From Betaproteobacteria bacterium (GTDB lineage Bacteria; Pseudomonadota; Gammaproteobacteria; Burkholderiales; Ferrovaceae), in contig JAGWPH010000299.1 of assembly GCA_028870615.1 (NCBI GenBank), positions 1-15,771 on the forward strand: a stretch of 15,771 nucleotides of DNA, in the 5' to 3' direction. The position numbers were made by a program, and so were the translations under genes. This document shows, piece by piece, positions 5,153-10,538 of this stretch; within the stretch, counting starts at the first letter, position 1, and each line of letters opens with the position of its first letter. The notes beneath the pieces were generated by a model, which was not told where the DNA came from, did no database searches, and saw only the letters and a list, made by a program, of their open reading frames with translations.

Positions 5153-5590
5153 ATGCAACGATTGACCTGGAGCGCTTCCTTACTGCTCTTCGCTTTTGCT
5201 GTTTCTGCCAGCGCGGCAGACTATCCCTCGGAACTCAAACTCGACCATCCTGATCACAGGGCCATCGTCGGCAAGCCAGGTAAGGCGCTGGAGGCCATGC
5301 AAGAGGCCTGCCCCCGATCCATGCTGAACAACGCCCCCGCCACGGAAGCCAGAAACATCAGGGAACGTATCCTCAGGACCGACGACGGCGTGATCATTGA
5401 AACCGATGCCGAACTGGTCAATGTTCCCGTGGGTTCTGAAAAGAAAACCGTCGCCGCAACCTACCGTTGCGAATACCGGGACGGCCTGCTCACCCTGGGG
5501 ATCTGGACGCGTGGCTTTGTGGGGAAGTGGACGATTTTCAACAACCCCCAACTGACCCAAAATGACCTGGGTACGCCCTGGCCGGAATAG
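5153..5590 (+). CDS. Hypothetical secreted protein upstream of rhodanese
   Basis: The 145-residue protein begins with a clear Sec signal peptide: MQRLTW, a hydrophobic core SASLLLFAFAV, and a likely cleavage after SASA (residue 21 or 22), leaving a mature domain of about 123 residues. The start at 5153 is preferred over a TTG at 5120 because it places the signal peptide at the N-terminus and has CTGGAG upstream. The mature part has two cysteines (EACPRS and TYRCEYRDG), which could form a disulfide in the periplasm. No enzyme motif is seen and I do not recognise the family. One base separates its stop from the rhodanese gene, so they are co-transcribed; this suggests, without proving, a periplasmic role linked to sulfur metabolism. 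Confidence 0.82.
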   Translation: MQRLTWSASLLLFAFAVSASAADYPSELKLDHPDHRAIVGKPGKALEAMQEACPRSMLNNAPATEARNIRERILRTDDGVIIETDAELVNVPVGSEKKTVAATYRCEYRDGLLTLGIWTRGFVGKWTIFNNPQLTQNDLGTPWPE

Positions 5591-5591
5591 T

Positions 5592-5972
5592 ATGAAATCC
5601 GCACTCGATCTGGTCGCGGCCGCCAAAGGCCGCATTCATGAAATCCCTGTGGAACAGGCCGAGCAGGCCATTCGCAACGCCGACCTGTTGATTGATGTGC
5701 GCGAAGGCGACGAGTTTGCCGCAGGGCACATCCCCGGCGCGGTGCACATGTCACGCGGCATGCTGGAATTCAAGCTGAGCACGAACCCTGCCCTGGCTGC
5801 ACGTGACCTGAACGTGGTGGTGTACTGCAAGACCAGCGGCCGCGCCGCCCTGTCCTGTGTCTCCCTCCAGGAAATGGGCTACCTGAATGTTCAATCCATC
5901 GCCGGGGGTTACGACGCCTGGGTTGCCGCCGGCAAACCCGTGGCCAAACCGCCCGTAACAAAATTTGAATAG
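5592..5972 (+). CDS. Single-domain rhodanese-like sulfurtransferase
   Basis: The 126-residue protein is one rhodanese domain. Visible motifs are LLIDVREGDEF (residues 32-42), GHIPGAVHM (45-53), the active loop YCKTSGRA with the persulfide-forming Cys79, and the closing GGYDAWVAAGKPV. Rhodaneses move sulfane sulfur from donors such as thiosulfate or glutathione persulfide to acceptors. There is no signal peptide, so it acts in the cytoplasm. The ATG at 5592 is chosen because it follows the upstream stop (5588-5590) by one base and begins at the normal N-terminus. The neighbour downstream is a Blh/ETHE1-like hydrolase, a family often fused to or encoded with rhodanese, which supports a role in sulfide or persulfide handling. 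Confidence 0.95.
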   Translation: MKSALDLVAAAKGRIHEIPVEQAEQAIRNADLLIDVREGDEFAAGHIPGAVHMSRGMLEFKLSTNPALAARDLNVVVYCKTSGRAALSCVSLQEMGYLNVQSIAGGYDAWVAAGKPVAKPPVTKFE

Positions 5973-5996
5973 TGGAAGGTTTTGGGGTCAGCCCTC

Positions 5997-6860
5997 GTGA
6001 TCAGTCCCCTGATCGAGTCGCTGTACGACACGGCCACCTCCAGTCTCAGTCATATCGTGCTGGATCCGGCCACACGGCGCTGCGCCGTGATCGACAGCGT
6101 GCTGGACTACGACCCGAGTTCGGGGCGCACCCGCACTGACAACGCAGACCGGTTGATGGCCCGGGTACGGGCGCTGGATGCAACGGTGCAATGGATTCTG
6201 GAAACCCATGTGCATGCCGACCATCTGTCCGCGGCACCTTATCTGGCGGCGCATCTGGGCGGCAAGGTGGCGATTGGCCGTCACGTCACGCAAGTGCAGC
6301 AGGTCTTTGGCGCGCTCTTTAACGCCGGCGAAACCTTCCGGCGGGATGGCAGCCAGTTCGACCACCTCTTCGATGACGGCGAGACCTTTCTGATTGGCAG
6401 CCTTGAAGCACGGGCCCTGCATACGCCCGGGCACACCCTGGCGTGCATGACCTATCTGGTGGGGGACGCGGCATTTGTGGGGGACACCCTGTTCGCGCCC
6501 GACTACGGCACCGCGCGCTGCGACTTCCCCGGCGGCGATGCGGTCACGCTATACCGTTCAATCCGCCGTGTGCTGGACTTGCCTGCACAGACCCGCCTTT
6601 ACCTTTGCCACGACTACCTGCCCGGCGAACGTTCGGTGCTGACCCACAGCACGGTGGCCGAACAACGCGCGGCAAATATTCACATCCATGAGGGCATTGG
6701 CGAAACGGCGTTTGTTGAAATGCGCACCGCGCGCGACGCCACCCTGGGCATGCCCACGCTGATCCTGCCCTCGGTGCAGATCAACATGCGCGCGGGGCAT
6801 CGGCCTCCGGCGGAAGCCAACGGTGTGCACTATCTCAAGATCCCGCTGGATGTTTTTTGA
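5997..6860 (+). CDS. Blh/ETHE1-like metallo-beta-lactamase-fold hydrolase, probable persulfide dioxygenase
   Basis: The roughly 287-residue protein is a metallo-beta-lactamase fold enzyme. Metal-site motifs are THVHADHLSA (about residues 70-79), HTPGHT (142-147), GDTLF (162-166) and LCHDY (203-207). The signature GTARCDFPGGDA and the tail LPSVQINMRAG match the Blh/ETHE1 group, iron persulfide dioxygenases that turn glutathione persulfide into sulfite. Unlike many Blh proteins it has no N-terminal DUF442 domain; a separate rhodanese gene lies just before it. The start is uncertain: a TTG at 5982 is in frame, but its spacing to GGAAGG is too short, and the GTG at 5997, nine bases after GGGG, gives the usual start (ISPLIESLYD). 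The 3' end overlaps the convergent ATP-grasp gene by 26 bases. Confidence 0.92.
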   Translation: MISPLIESLYDTATSSLSHIVLDPATRRCAVIDSVLDYDPSSGRTRTDNADRLMARVRALDATVQWILETHVHADHLSAAPYLAAHLGGKVAIGRHVTQVQQVFGALFNAGETFRRDGSQFDHLFDDGETFLIGSLEARALHTPGHTLACMTYLVGDAAFVGDTLFAPDYGTARCDFPGGDAVTLYRSIRRVLDLPAQTRLYLCHDYLPGERSVLTHSTVAEQRAANIHIHEGIGETAFVEMRTARDATLGMPTLILPSVQINMRAGHRPPAEANGVHYLKIPLDVF

Positions 6861-8163
6861 GGGGGAAATTGCAATCTCCCGCCCCGCTCCATTCCCACAC
6901 CGGCGCAAAGCCGCCCCCCGGTGTGCGGAAATTGGTGGTCTGCCCCTGATACAGGCGTGCCGCCACCCATTGCACGGCGCCATCGTACACATAGTTGCGC
7001 AGATCGAATTTGAGCAGGGTCTCCCCTGTAATGACCCGCTCTCCCGGGGTCACCAGCCGTTGCGCCACGTAGTCTCCAGCCAGAATCTCCTGCCATACGC
7101 GCTGCGTGAGTTTGTCGCCGCGATAGGCCGCACGGCTGCCAAAACCCGCGACCGGCTTGAAAAACAAGTGTCGCCTTTCACGCCACAACCGCTCGGCCTG
7201 TGCGGCATCCACCACCTCGGTGGGCGGGATGCTGGCCAATAAAATATCGCGGGTGGCCGGCGGCACGCCCCATTTGCGTAAACACGCTTCATCGGTCAGC
7301 AACGCCAGATTGCGTTTGTCGGCGTAGAGCGCATGGGCGCGCGGATGGGGCGTCACCACTGCGGCGCGACTCAACCATGCTTCGCGCAGCACCGCATGCG
7401 ATGGGGCCCCGAAAGAAAAATCCGTCAAACGGTTGTAGACCAGGTCGATTGCTGCTGCGCCATGCCACAACTGGCCATCGCGCAATTGAAGATCTGCTGG
7501 ATCGGCAACCGTTGCCTCCAGCCCATGACGCTGGAAGTATTGCTGGAACAGAAGAAATTCCGGATAGAGGAATTGCCGCGCGGGATCATCATCCACGATC
7601 GCAATGCTTTTCAGCGGTCGCACCGCACCGGCAAGGCGCCATTCCTCCCGGAACATGGCGAGGATGCGCGTTTCAAATAAATCGGCCTGGGTGGCCGGCG
7701 AGATCAAGGGCGTCATCTCGGGGCAACAGGCGCGCTGCGCCCTTGCCAGCACCGCATTGAGCAGGGCTCCGCCCGCATTGGTATTGATTTCGATCAGCCC
7801 CACATGCTGGTCGGTCACATGAAAATCATAGCCAAAGAACACGCCGTGCGACTGCGTTTCGCCCTGGCGTGCGATCGCAGGCGCACGCGACAGCGCCACT
7901 TCCTGATACGCGGGCAGGGCCACCACCGCCGTCACCGCCTGCACGACCTGATTCATGCGCGCGAGATGATCCTGCGACACGAACACCGCGCGGGGAGAAA
8001 ACAGGTGGGGGCAATGCTTCTGAACAAGATCGAACAACCCGGGCTGACCCAGCTCGGATTCCAGCGCCCGGCGCAAGGCCGCTTCATCGAGGCTGATGCA
8101 AAAACAGAGGCTATTGAGGTCTTGATGACCGGGGTCTGACCCCGATTTTATCGTCGTGTTCAT
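6835..8163 (-). CDS. ATP-grasp-like enzyme of unknown substrate, last gene of the ars operon
   Basis: The 442-residue protein carries ATP-grasp-type motifs: LIEINTNAGGALLN (residues 123-136) resembles the acidic metal-binding strand (E-x-N), HLFFKPVAGFGSRAAYRG (332-349) resembles the ATP-binding Lys and glycine-rich loop, DYVAQRLV (364-371) the hinge, and KFDLRNYVYDG (385-395) the D-x-R strand. The E-x-N strand precedes the glycine-rich loop, whereas it is last in classical ATP-grasp proteins, so a circular permutation is likely. Such enzymes join a carboxylate to an amine or thiol; the substrate here cannot be read from the sequence. There is no signal peptide or membrane helix. The start ATG at 8163 has AAAGG five bases upstream and lies 53 bases inside the ACR3 gene, so it is coupled to the pump. 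Confidence 0.85.
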   Translation of the reverse strand: MNTTIKSGSDPGHQDLNSLCFCISLDEAALRRALESELGQPGLFDLVQKHCPHLFSPRAVFVSQDHLARMNQVVQAVTAVVALPAYQEVALSRAPAIARQGETQSHGVFFGYDFHVTDQHVGLIEINTNAGGALLNAVLARAQRACCPEMTPLISPATQADLFETRILAMFREEWRLAGAVRPLKSIAIVDDDPARQFLYPEFLLFQQYFQRHGLEATVADPADLQLRDGQLWHGAAAIDLVYNRLTDFSFGAPSHAVLREAWLSRAAVVTPHPRAHALYADKRNLALLTDEACLRKWGVPPATRDILLASIPPTEVVDAAQAERLWRERRHLFFKPVAGFGSRAAYRGDKLTQRVWQEILAGDYVAQRLVTPGERVITGETLLKFDLRNYVYDGAVQWVAARLYQGQTTNFRTPGGGFAPVWEWSGAGDCNFPLKKHPAGS

Positions 8164-9169
8164 ACCAACCTTTGCTTGCATTGACCACGCGCACCACCAG
8201 CAACATCGCCGGGACTTCGATCAGCACCCCCACGACGGTGGCGAGGGCAGCACCGGAATTGAATCCAAACAGGCTGATGGCCGCCGCGACAGCCAACTCA
8301 AAAAAATTGGAGGCGCCGATCAGTGCCGAAGGACAGGCGATGTTGTGCTTTTCTCCCAGCATCCGGTTGAGACCATAAGCCAGGGCTGCGTTGAAGAATA
8401 CCTGAATCAGGATGGGTACCGCCAGAAGCGCAATCACCAGGGGCTGGCGCAAAATGGCTTCGCCCTGAAAGGCAAACAACAACACCAGGGTCGCCAGAAG
8501 CGCGCTAACGGACCACGGCCCGATCCGCACCATGGCGGCGTTAAACGCTGACAGGCCGCGCGCCAGCAATGACCGGCGCCAGAGTTGTGCAAGGATGACG
8601 GGAATCACGATGTACAGCACCACGGAAGTCAGCAAGGTGGCCCACGGTACCGTGATGGCCGAGATTCCCAGCAGGAAGGCCACCAGCGGCGCAAAGGCAA
8701 ACACCATGATGGTGTCATTCAGCGCCACCTGCGACAGCGTAAACAGCGGATCGCCCCGGGACAGGCGGCTCCACACAAAGACCATCGCCGTACAGGGCGC
8801 TGCGGCCAATAAAATCAGCCCGGCAATGTAGCTGTCGATCTCACCGGCGGGCAGCAACGGCGCAAACCAGTGGCGGATGAACAGCCACCCCAGGAAGGCC
8901 ATCGAGAACGGCTTCACCAGCCAGTTGACGAACAGCGTCACACCGATGCCGCGCACGTGCTGGCGCACTTCATGCAGTGCGGAGAAATCCACCTTGACCA
9001 GCATCGGGATGATCATGACCCAGATCAGCAACCCCACGGGCAGGTTGACCCGGGCGACCTCCATGCCACCGATGGTCTGAAAGACGCCAGGCAGGAGCTG
9101 TCCCAAAACGATTCCGGCAAGAATGCAAAGAAACACCCAGACGCTGAGGTAGCGCTCGAACACGCTCAT
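8111..9169 (-). CDS. acr3: ACR3-family arsenite efflux permease
   Basis: The 352-residue protein is hydrophobic over its whole length, with about ten membrane helices, as in the ACR3 branch (bile acid/arsenite/riboflavin transporter superfamily). It exports As(III) as arsenite using the proton gradient. Visible signatures are the opening FERYLSVWVFLCILAGIVLG, MLVKVDF, the conserved helix-4 Cys126 in APCTAMVFVWS, ASNFFELAVA and GVLIEVPAML with Glu318. Its ATG overlaps the stop of the upstream arsC (ATGA). The normal family end is near GWYE; the last 15 or so residues (HDDKIGVRPRSSRPQ) are encoded by a palindromic repeat (8130-8144), so the original stop was probably replaced by repeat insertion. 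Confidence 0.97.
   Translation of the reverse strand: MSVFERYLSVWVFLCILAGIVLGQLLPGVFQTIGGMEVARVNLPVGLLIWVMIIPMLVKVDFSALHEVRQHVRGIGVTLFVNWLVKPFSMAFLGWLFIRHWFAPLLPAGEIDSYIAGLILLAAAPCTAMVFVWSRLSRGDPLFTLSQVALNDTIMVFAFAPLVAFLLGISAITVPWATLLTSVVLYIVIPVILAQLWRRSLLARGLSAFNAAMVRIGPWSVSALLATLVLLFAFQGEAILRQPLVIALLAVPILIQVFFNAALAYGLNRMLGEKHNIACPSALIGASNFFELAVAAAISLFGFNSGAALATVVGVLIEVPAMLLVVRVVNASKGWYEHDDKIGVRPRSSRPQ
8130..8144. repeat. REP-like palindrome CGGGGTC-T-GACCCCG inside the end of ACR3
   Basis: Two perfect 7-base arms (8130-8136 and 8138-8144) flank one central base. GGGGTCAGACCCC-type palindromes are, to my knowledge, common intergenic repeats in betaproteobacteria. Here the repeat supplies codons of the ACR3 C-terminal tail and is also in the first part of the ATP-grasp reading frame. 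Degenerate relatives lie at 5984-5996 and 14004-14017. Confidence 0.6.
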
Positions 9170-9666
9170 CGGTGCTGCTCCCCCATTTCGCGGAGCCGGG
9201 TTTGCAGGGACAGGCGGTCGAGCTTGTCAACGGGCAGACTCATGAACAACCGGATCCGGTTGGTGATCTGAAACTCCGCATGCGTAAAGGCTTTGAGCTG
9301 CTTTTCCCGGTCACCGGCGACCGCTGCGGGATCGGCAAAACCCCAGTGCGCCGTGACCGGCTGTCCCGGCCATGCCGGGCAAACCTCGCCAGCCGCCTGG
9401 TCGCACACCGTGAAGATAAAGTCCATCGCGGGGGAATCGGATGCGGCAAACGCCGTCCAGCTTTTGCTGCGCAGTCCCGCCACATCGTAGCCCTGGCTCG
9501 TGAGGACCTGCAGCGTCATCGGATGCACCGTGCCGCGCGGATCACTGCCCGCGCTGTAGGCTTTGAAGCGGCCTTTTCCAAGATCATTCATGATGGCTTC
9601 CGCCATGATGCTGCGCGCGGAATTGCCGGTGCAGATGAACAGCACGTTATAGATTTTAGCTTTCAT
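9166..9666 (-). CDS. arsC: Arsenate reductase, low-molecular-weight phosphatase type (second copy in operon)
   Basis: The 166-residue protein has the phosphatase loop CTGNSARS with the nucleophile Cys12 and a second cysteine pair in VCDQAAGEVCPAWPG (Cys88 and Cys96). This is the layout of cytoplasmic thiol-coupled ArsC enzymes that reduce arsenate to arsenite through a disulfide relay. The start ATG at 9666 lies 11 bases inside the end of the preceding arsC, with GGGAG upstream; a longer frame to 9702 is possible but would place extra residues before the conserved strand. The stop overlaps the ACR3 start. It differs from its neighbour in the P-loop (SARS against SCRS) and ends in a longer charged tail. 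The electron donor (thioredoxin or glutaredoxin) cannot be decided by eye. Confidence 0.93.
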   Translation of the reverse strand: MKAKIYNVLFICTGNSARSIMAEAIMNDLGKGRFKAYSAGSDPRGTVHPMTLQVLTSQGYDVAGLRSKSWTAFAASDSPAMDFIFTVCDQAAGEVCPAWPGQPVTAHWGFADPAAVAGDREKQLKAFTHAEFQITNRIRLFMSLPVDKLDRLSLQTRLREMGEQHR

Positions 9667-10162
9667 GGTGCGACTCCCGCCCACCCGTTTCCATATTTCC
9701 AATCTGAATCAGCGCTGCCTGCAGGCGCTTGGGATCACTTTGCAGCGCGTCGAGCGGCAATGCGAGAAAGGCTTCGATGCGACCGTGCAGAATGCGGTAG
9801 GCGGTCATGAAGGCGGCACCGATTTCCTCATCGGTGCCCGTGGCCTTCGCCGGGTCGTCCACTCCCCAATGGGCACGCAGCGCCGGCCCAAGATAGGCGG
9901 GACAGGTCTCCCCCGCCGCACTGTCACAGACGGTGATGACGATGTCGGGGGGTTGCGGCAGGTTGTCCCAGGATTTGCTGTAGTGACCCTGGGTGGGCAG
10001 TCCCTCACGCGCCAGCAGCGCAAGGGAGCGCGGATGCACCTGTCCGGTGGGATGGCTTCCCGCACTCATGGCTTTCCAGCCCGCCGGGGCAAGATGGTTG
10101 AAGATGGCTTCGGCAAGAATCGAACGGCAGGAGTTGCCGGTACAGAGAAAGAGGAGGTTCAT
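9656..10162 (-). CDS. arsC: Arsenate reductase, low-molecular-weight phosphatase type (first copy in operon)
   Basis: The 168-residue protein starts with NLLFLCTGNSCRS, the phosphatase loop with nucleophile Cys7 and an extra Cys12, and has a second pair in VCDSAAGETCPAYLG (Cys79 and Cys87). It reduces arsenate to arsenite in the cytoplasm for export by ACR3. The ATG at 10162 is chosen because it overlaps the arsR stop (ATGA), has GAACCTCCTC-like purine-poor sequence only weakly helping, and begins exactly at the family N-terminus. It differs clearly from the following arsC at many positions, so the pair is an old duplication or a merger of two lineages, not a recent tandem copy. Confidence 0.93.
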   Translation of the reverse strand: MNLLFLCTGNSCRSILAEAIFNHLAPAGWKAMSAGSHPTGQVHPRSLALLAREGLPTQGHYSKSWDNLPQPPDIVITVCDSAAGETCPAYLGPALRAHWGVDDPAKATGTDEEIGAAFMTAYRILHGRIEAFLALPLDALQSDPKRLQAALIQIGNMETGGRESHHES

Positions 10163-10464
10163 TTGGCGCATTGCTCGGGACGCCCCGAACAGCATTCCTC
10201 GGTCAGGTAAGCGATCAGGTCCAGCATCAACGGAATATTGGCGCGATAGCGTTGAAAGCGGCCCTCCTGCTCCACGGTCAGCAGACGGGCCTGCGTCAAC
10301 GCCTTCAGGTGGAACGAGAGGTTGGTGGGCGGCACATCCAGCACCGCAGCGATGTCGCCTGCCACCATGCCTTCCGGTTCTTTCCTGACAAGCAATCGAA
10401 ACGCGTCAAGCCGGACCCCTGAAGCAAGGACGTCGAAAAGCAAGACGGCAGTGGGATGATCCAT
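10159..10464 (-). CDS. arsR: ArsR/SmtB-family arsenite-responsive repressor
   Basis: The 101-residue protein is a winged helix-turn-helix repressor of the ArsR/SmtB family: LASGVRLDAFRLLV (helix region), AVLDVPPTNLSFHLKAL (recognition helix, about residues 40-56) and the wing LLTVEQEGRFQRYRAN. The classical ELCVCDL arsenic site of plasmid ArsR is missing from the recognition helix. Instead Cys91, Cys92 and Cys99 cluster near the C-terminus (EECCSGRPEQC), as in the Acidithiobacillus ferrooxidans type, so As(III) is probably bound there. The ATG at 10464 is preferred to a TTG at 10482; no ribosome site precedes it. It is the first gene of arsR-arsC-arsC-ACR3-ATP-grasp and should repress its own operon. 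Confidence 0.95.
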   Translation of the reverse strand: MDHPTAVLLFDVLASGVRLDAFRLLVRKEPEGMVAGDIAAVLDVPPTNLSFHLKALTQARLLTVEQEGRFQRYRANIPLMLDLIAYLTEECCSGRPEQCAK

Positions 10465-10502: not shown

Positions 10503-10538
10503 GGGACCAGGCCTCAAACACATTTGAGGCCTGGTCCC
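10503..10538 (-). terminator. Strong perfect hairpin after the small heat-shock genes
   Basis: Arms GGGACCAGGCCTCAAA (10503-10518) and its exact complement (10523-10538) flank a four-base loop. It lies 15 bases after the stop of the second hsp20 gene and before arsR, so it can end the heat-shock transcript. The run after the stem on this strand is CTTTCCC, poor in U, while AATTTTC follows on the other strand. It may therefore be a REP-like intergenic repeat serving as a terminator or mRNA 3' end stabiliser. Confidence 0.6.

Follow-up and report, generated by a model that had tools for sequence, protein, structure and literature searches.

Glutathione synthetase, Gsp synthetase, YgiC and YjfC of Escherichia coli, and the fungal ligase Cp1B belong to the permuted ATP-grasp group, in which a carboxylate is phosphorylated to an acyl phosphate and then joined to an amine. 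For Cp1B (9CJN), which makes E-64, this chemistry (carboxylate to acyl phosphate, then amine attack) is described in PMC12568646. Here we examined a window, the whole 15,771-nucleotide stretch of contig JAGWPH010000299.1 (assembly GCA_028870615.1, a betaproteobacterium of the Ferrovaceae), in which a permuted ATP-grasp (glutathione-synthetase-fold) ligase-like protein of 442 amino acids is encoded at 6835..8163 on the minus strand, at the end of a chain of arsenic resistance genes. Cp1B has no metal context, unlike this ligase. We lean toward the reading that the protein is a permuted ATP-grasp ligase which forms amide (C-N) bonds at the expense of ATP, is produced together with the arsenite pump, and serves to detoxify thiophilic metals and metalloids (Cu(I) and As(III)) and not arsenic alone. 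The parts of this reading differ in strength: the predicted glutathione-synthetase-type permuted ATP-grasp fold is close to certain, the predicted ligase activity is highly probable, a putative role in metal stress is likely, and a thiol or chelator as the putative product is tentative.

The ligase open reading frame (ORF; 8163 to 6835) was intact. AAAGG lies 5 nt 5' of its ATG at 8163, and an alternative in-frame start is possible at ATG 8181. As claimed in the original prediction, which was made from the letters and their ORFs alone, the ligase gene starts inside the ACR3 gene; the ACR3 stop (8111) lies within the ligase gene, giving a 53-base overlap with ATG 8163. The motifs were found at exactly the residues given there: the E-x-N strand (LIEINTNAGG, residues 123 to 132, with E-x-N at 125 to 127) precedes the Gly-rich loop (FKPVAGFGSRAAY, residues 335 to 347) and the D-x-R strand (KFDLRNYVYDG, residues 385 to 395, with D-x-R at 387 to 389). 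This order is indeed opposite to that of classical ATP-grasp enzymes, as already established for the permuted group; the permutation is thus no novelty, since glutathione synthetase, YgiC, and Gsp synthetase have the same one. PF14403 (CP_ATPgrasp_2; curated cutoff, 32 bits) also has its motifs in the same order, starting with a strand of the type acidic-x-N and continuing with Y-x-R, D-K, K-P plus the Gly-rich loop, and D-L-R, the difference being that the window protein itself did not match that model at an E value of ≤1.

Structure comparison bore out the predicted ATP-grasp fold, with the whole chain resembling the glutathione synthetase/Gsp synthetase group; from this fold, a role as a carboxylate-amine ligase is plausible. 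Identity to eukaryotic glutathione and homoglutathione synthetases (2HGS and 3KAL) was 12%, and the ligase differs from these in being bacterial, in lying in metal operons, and in having no Pfam match. GshB aligned through its residues 1 to 249 to model residues 184 to 425, and its later part, in which its E-x-N presumably lies, remained unaligned. No Pfam or NCBIfam model matched the window protein at an E value of ≤1, including the Pfam glutathione synthetase families and GSP_synth (PF03738), and neither sequence nor profile searches of the PDB returned a match. Of 26 relatives, 5 matched CP_ATPgrasp_2 at an E value of ≤1 (best, 2.5e-4) and 8 matched YheCD (best, 2.5e-3). In hhalign, a profile of five CP_ATPgrasp_2 proteins was matched with 68% probability over residues 216 to 396. 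The lack of Pfam and NCBIfam matches, together with these weak CP_ATPgrasp_2 links, marks the protein as a distant, unmodeled relative. A search with the window protein returned at least 7,998 homologs, all with E values of <0.001, and one with a distant family member returned at least 7,998 proteins (7,997 at <0.001). Among the best 120 matches listed for each, the named matches of the window protein were called "hypothetical" or "uncharacterized," and a few of those of the distant member were called ATP-grasp or circularly permuted type 2 ATP-grasp. No title or abstract opening that we found mentions the family in connection with operons for arsenic or copper. The ligase family is uncharacterized; the fold itself is of a known kind.

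The fold would also suit a true glutathione synthetase that replaces GshB. No Pfam model for glutathione synthetases (or for any other family) matches the ligase, however, and the window's own genome holds an N-terminal GshB fragment (46.6 bits against a cutoff of 299; model positions 1 to 56) at an apparent contig end, where a GshB that the cell probably does have would be truncated. Because of this fragment, replacement of GshB was set aside as very improbable.

We know of no CxC/CC signature in YgiC or YjfC. The three top VIA rows of the fold match were YgiC (two entries) and YjfC; YgiC of E. coli K-12 is annotated as a peptide--spermidine ligase, and a title cited in PMC12568646, as it stands in the reference list, names both proteins as peptide-spermidine ligases. 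The enzyme could accordingly attach an amino acid, a polyamine, or a peptide to proteins or peptides, possibly to repair or cap thiol proteins damaged by metals; it would then not make a free chelator. In 22 of 92 homologs (23 with L028, where it is part of a 582-amino-acid ORF), the ligase carries a fused C-terminal domain of about 110 amino acids that might dock such a substrate, and in 4 the domain is separate; P0070, in which it forms the last 110 residues, had no NCBIfam match. The window copy lacks this domain, and hhalign gave 0.15% for YgiC and 0.65% for Gsp synthetase, although targets consisting of single sequences are weak tests. Without a sequence-profile link to either protein, the fold match is uninformative as to substrate, and we regard peptide tagging as unlikely.

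Residue conservation was next read from an alignment of 365 rows, 240 of them from two similarity-ranked searches; for this reason, and because the rows include repeats, near relatives are overrepresented. Six residues (E125, N127, Y243, R245, D248, and K336) were kept in all 354 long-form rows, and four (K283, K385, D387, and R389) were kept in 353, the remaining row having a gap; this retention of catalytic-type residues exceeds chance. Four cysteines form a CxC near the N terminus and a CC after the E-x-N helix. Where the rows cover these positions, C20 was conserved in 337/337 and C22 in 336, and C146 was conserved in 351/352 and C147 in 352/352; alignment A1, whose 26 rows reach down to 45% identity, likewise has all four without exception. 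A shorter sister form of about 355 amino acids (11 rows) never has a complete CxC and has no CC. The two forms share E125, N127, K283, K336, D387, and R389, barring gaps and one short row that deviates at D387.

To place the homologs in their genomic context, marker genes were sought by tblastn within 6 kb of the ligase. At three homolog loci (L007, L037, and L071), the match continues past a stop, and the proteins were taken up to that stop without repair. The ars markers were ACR3, ArsJ, or ArsC, and the metal markers were P-type ATPase, RND pump, CopB/C/D, multicopper oxidase, CDF, DUF305, DUF411, four-helix copper protein, PCuAC, and ICMT-type methyltransferase. The best 80 of 337 loci by similarity formed the main set: 23 had ars markers only, 3 had ars and metal markers, 29 had metal markers only, and 25 had none. 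Twenty-two of these loci are shorter than 14 kb; among the remaining 58, ars markers were present in 21 (2 also with metal markers), metal markers alone in 24, and neither in 13. In 10/80 loci, the gene immediately preceding the ligase, co-directional and within 230 bp, was ACR3, with ArsR so placed in one more, and a divergent arsR was found within 270 bp in 9/92 homolog loci. The original prediction had described the gene as locked into an arsenic operon. That holds for its place in the window, which recurs in other lineages, but not for the family, which is not tied to arsenic.

A more evenly drawn sample comprised 14 of the 15 foreign matches of one draw and 20 of another (10 long forms, and 10 short forms out of about 100). 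Its long forms exclude the fragment in G038, the second copy in G609, G620 (fragments and matches interrupted by a stop), and a weak match in G525. Of the 22 evenly drawn long-form loci, 3 had ars markers, 8 had metal markers, and 11 had none. For comparison, 20 random 17-kb regions, which we positioned elsewhere on contigs of 20 sampled genomes and counted over their whole length, contained one ars marker and one P-type ATPase (a ppk2 match in control L175 was not counted as metal). By Fisher tests, whose p-values are optimistic because the rows share ancestry, any marker was more frequent near the ligase than in the random regions in both samples (45/58 versus 2/20, p = 1e-7; 11/22 versus 2/20, p = 0.006), as were ars markers alone in the main set (21/58 versus 1/20, p = 0.005).

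The context appears to follow descent. A quick tree was built from 124 rows, of which 30 were labeled ars, 48 were labeled metal, and 46 were unlabeled; L123 (no tblastn hit) and rows of fewer than 300 residues were excluded, and several branches are long. In this tree, 8 label changes were counted versus 24 expected on shuffling, and the well-supported branches force 4. Context is therefore inherited within clades, yet arsenic and metal contexts interchange.

Several observations weigh against a role in metal detoxification or against its link to arsenic. No marker was nearby in 13 of the 58 longer loci or in 11 of the 22 evenly drawn ones, and several marker-free loci, judged by eye, lie among housekeeping genes; the tblastn markers, based on few references, miss some genes and do not distinguish copper from other metal ATPases. 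Metal or ars markers were found in 0/11 short-form loci. Markers of ars alone were not enriched in the evenly drawn loci (3/22 versus 1/20; Fisher p = 0.34). In one family of 197 genomes (the f182 and f208 surveys cover a single, automatically drawn family each), the ligase was present in 12 genomes and ACR3 in 85, and there was no genome-level link between the two (ACR3 in 4/12 ligase genomes versus 85/197 overall; p = 0.56); a single one of 13 ligase copies lay near ACR3, at 2.8 kb start to start. Homologs in general are thus not ars linked: linkage to ACR3 or arsR was local and confined to a minority of loci, and for ACR3 it was not seen at the genome level in the one family surveyed. Finally, the cysteines could instead be structural (zinc) or catalytic, and the short form does without them.

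The marker-free half of the evenly drawn loci would also fit a cargo gene of metal-resistance islands that has an unrelated metabolic role (an osmolyte dipeptide or a sugar-linked amide) and shares the metal context by hitchhiking, and the short form is a stable gene next to glycosyltransferases. A homolog of N-acetylglutaminylglutamine amidotransferase, a possible pathway partner, points the same way; it lies near the ligase at L082 (7669-9501), in 5/80 loci, and on plasmid pPNAP02. Set against this are the direct same-strand ACR3 linkage and divergent arsR linkage of several clades and the retention in the long form of cysteines that the short form lacks. Among plasmid matches, all 12 stretches examined (of 32) carry metal-resistance genes, with the ligase inside the clusters; no ars genes were found in these 12 neighborhoods, for which the plasmid gene tables are incomplete. 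We consider hitchhiking doubtful and return to the reading of a ligase that serves metal and metalloid detoxification.

In the window, family models bore out the claim that the ligase gene is the fifth of five overlapping genes with arsR first. The minus-strand chain is co-directional and runs from an ArsR/SmtB-type regulator (10159..10464; PF12840, 47.3 bits against a cutoff of 27; NF033788, 52.1 bits, below its cutoff of 55) through an ArsC-like protein (9656..10195; PF01451, 76.3 bits; TIGR02691, 73.4 bits, below cutoff) and the ArsC-like low-molecular-weight phosphatase-fold arsenate reductase adjoining ACR3 (9166..9702; PF01451, 67.2 bits; TIGR02691, 74.1 bits, below its cutoff of 174.3) to the ACR3 arsenite efflux pump (8111..9169; TIGR00832, 387.7 bits against a cutoff of 282.8) and the ligase. 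Both ArsC-like genes and arsR thus belong to the right families above Pfam cutoffs and fall below the stricter NCBI ones. The arsR start was taken as ATG 10464, where the ORF list has TTG 10482; the farther ArsC-like gene is given as the longest ORF, and its true start is possibly further in. The nearest homolog loci retain this organization: L002 has the order arsR-arsC-ACR3-ligase, with one arsC, and L003 has arsR-arsC-arsC-ACR3-ligase followed, like the window, by convergent metallo-beta-lactamase and rhodanese genes.

Other features of the window and related loci were recorded. The operon holds two ArsC-like genes in tandem (9166-10195, minus strand), both encoding proteins with a low-molecular-weight phosphatase fold. 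A perfect 16-bp inverted repeat with a 4-base loop (10503-10538), either a terminator or an operator, lies between an HSP20 gene and arsR. The rhodanese and metallo-beta-lactamase genes (5562-6860, plus strand), both kept in L003, converge on the ligase gene and overlap its end by 26 bp; for the second gene, the match is to the later portion of Blh, a fused sulfur transferase/dioxygenase (NF040641, 381.6 bits, below its cutoff of 625). Elsewhere, an ArsE-type thioredoxin (TIGR00412, above cutoff) and an SO_0444/SaoE-like permease (below cutoff) precede the ligase, directly in L041 and one gene apart in L037, two loci that the markers did not score as ars.

The short form was found in many genomes by a broad draw over the phylum. 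It resembles the long form (hhalign, 100%; 32% identity for L166) and has the same ligase motifs; it differs in length, in having neither the CC pair nor the N-terminal region with the CxC, and in not lying beside the metal markers (0/11 loci). In group f208 it was present in 53/61 genomes, and 44 of 47 above-cutoff copies of TIGR04283, which NCBI labels "arsenosugar biosynthesis glycosyltransferase," follow it on the same strand at a distance of less than 200 bp, as in L166 to L169; the three exceptions lie at 1.8 kb, on another contig, and at a contig edge. Seven genomes have the ligase and no above-cutoff TIGR04283 copy. TIGR04282 follows in L166, the locus that was scanned. ArsS (TIGR04167) was above cutoff in 53/61 of the genomes, elsewhere in the genome; because most f208 genomes hold all three genes, a test of their co-occurrence has little power. 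The short form of L162 adjoins genes for a PstS-like binding protein, a Rad50/SbcC-like ATPase, and an MFS transporter, and some of the loci L160 to L165 looked similar by eye.

A mechanism can be proposed for the long form. The ligase would be coproduced with the ACR3 pump, with As(III) induction through ArsR. It would phosphorylate a carboxylate to an acyl phosphate and join this to an amine. The CxC...CC quartet may bind metal, and the enzyme may therefore be metal activated, for which phytochelatin synthase provides an analogy. The product might be a small thiol, a chelating peptide, or a conjugate that buffers metal or feeds the efflux pump; it is likely to be other than glutathione, or a derivative of it, since the cell probably makes glutathione with its own GshB. 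More speculatively, and at rather long odds, As(III) or Cu(I) on the quartet might switch on synthesis of a low-molecular-weight thiol or chelating pseudopeptide, which would make the long form a bacterial counterpart of phytochelatin synthesis for arsenic and copper islands; the short form would make a related amide destined for glycoconjugates of the arsenosugar type in genomes that carry ArsS.

The gene is real and was correctly read, and the ligase family is more general than arsenic. What makes this family interesting is its size, the soft-metal context, and the four cysteines. Copper and arsenic resistance is usually portrayed in terms of pumps, reductases, and regulators; if the proposed function is true, a family of thousands that lacks a proper Pfam or NCBIfam model would represent an overlooked enzymatic layer of this resistance, and its sister form would possibly link efflux-based resistance with arsenosugar-type biosynthesis.
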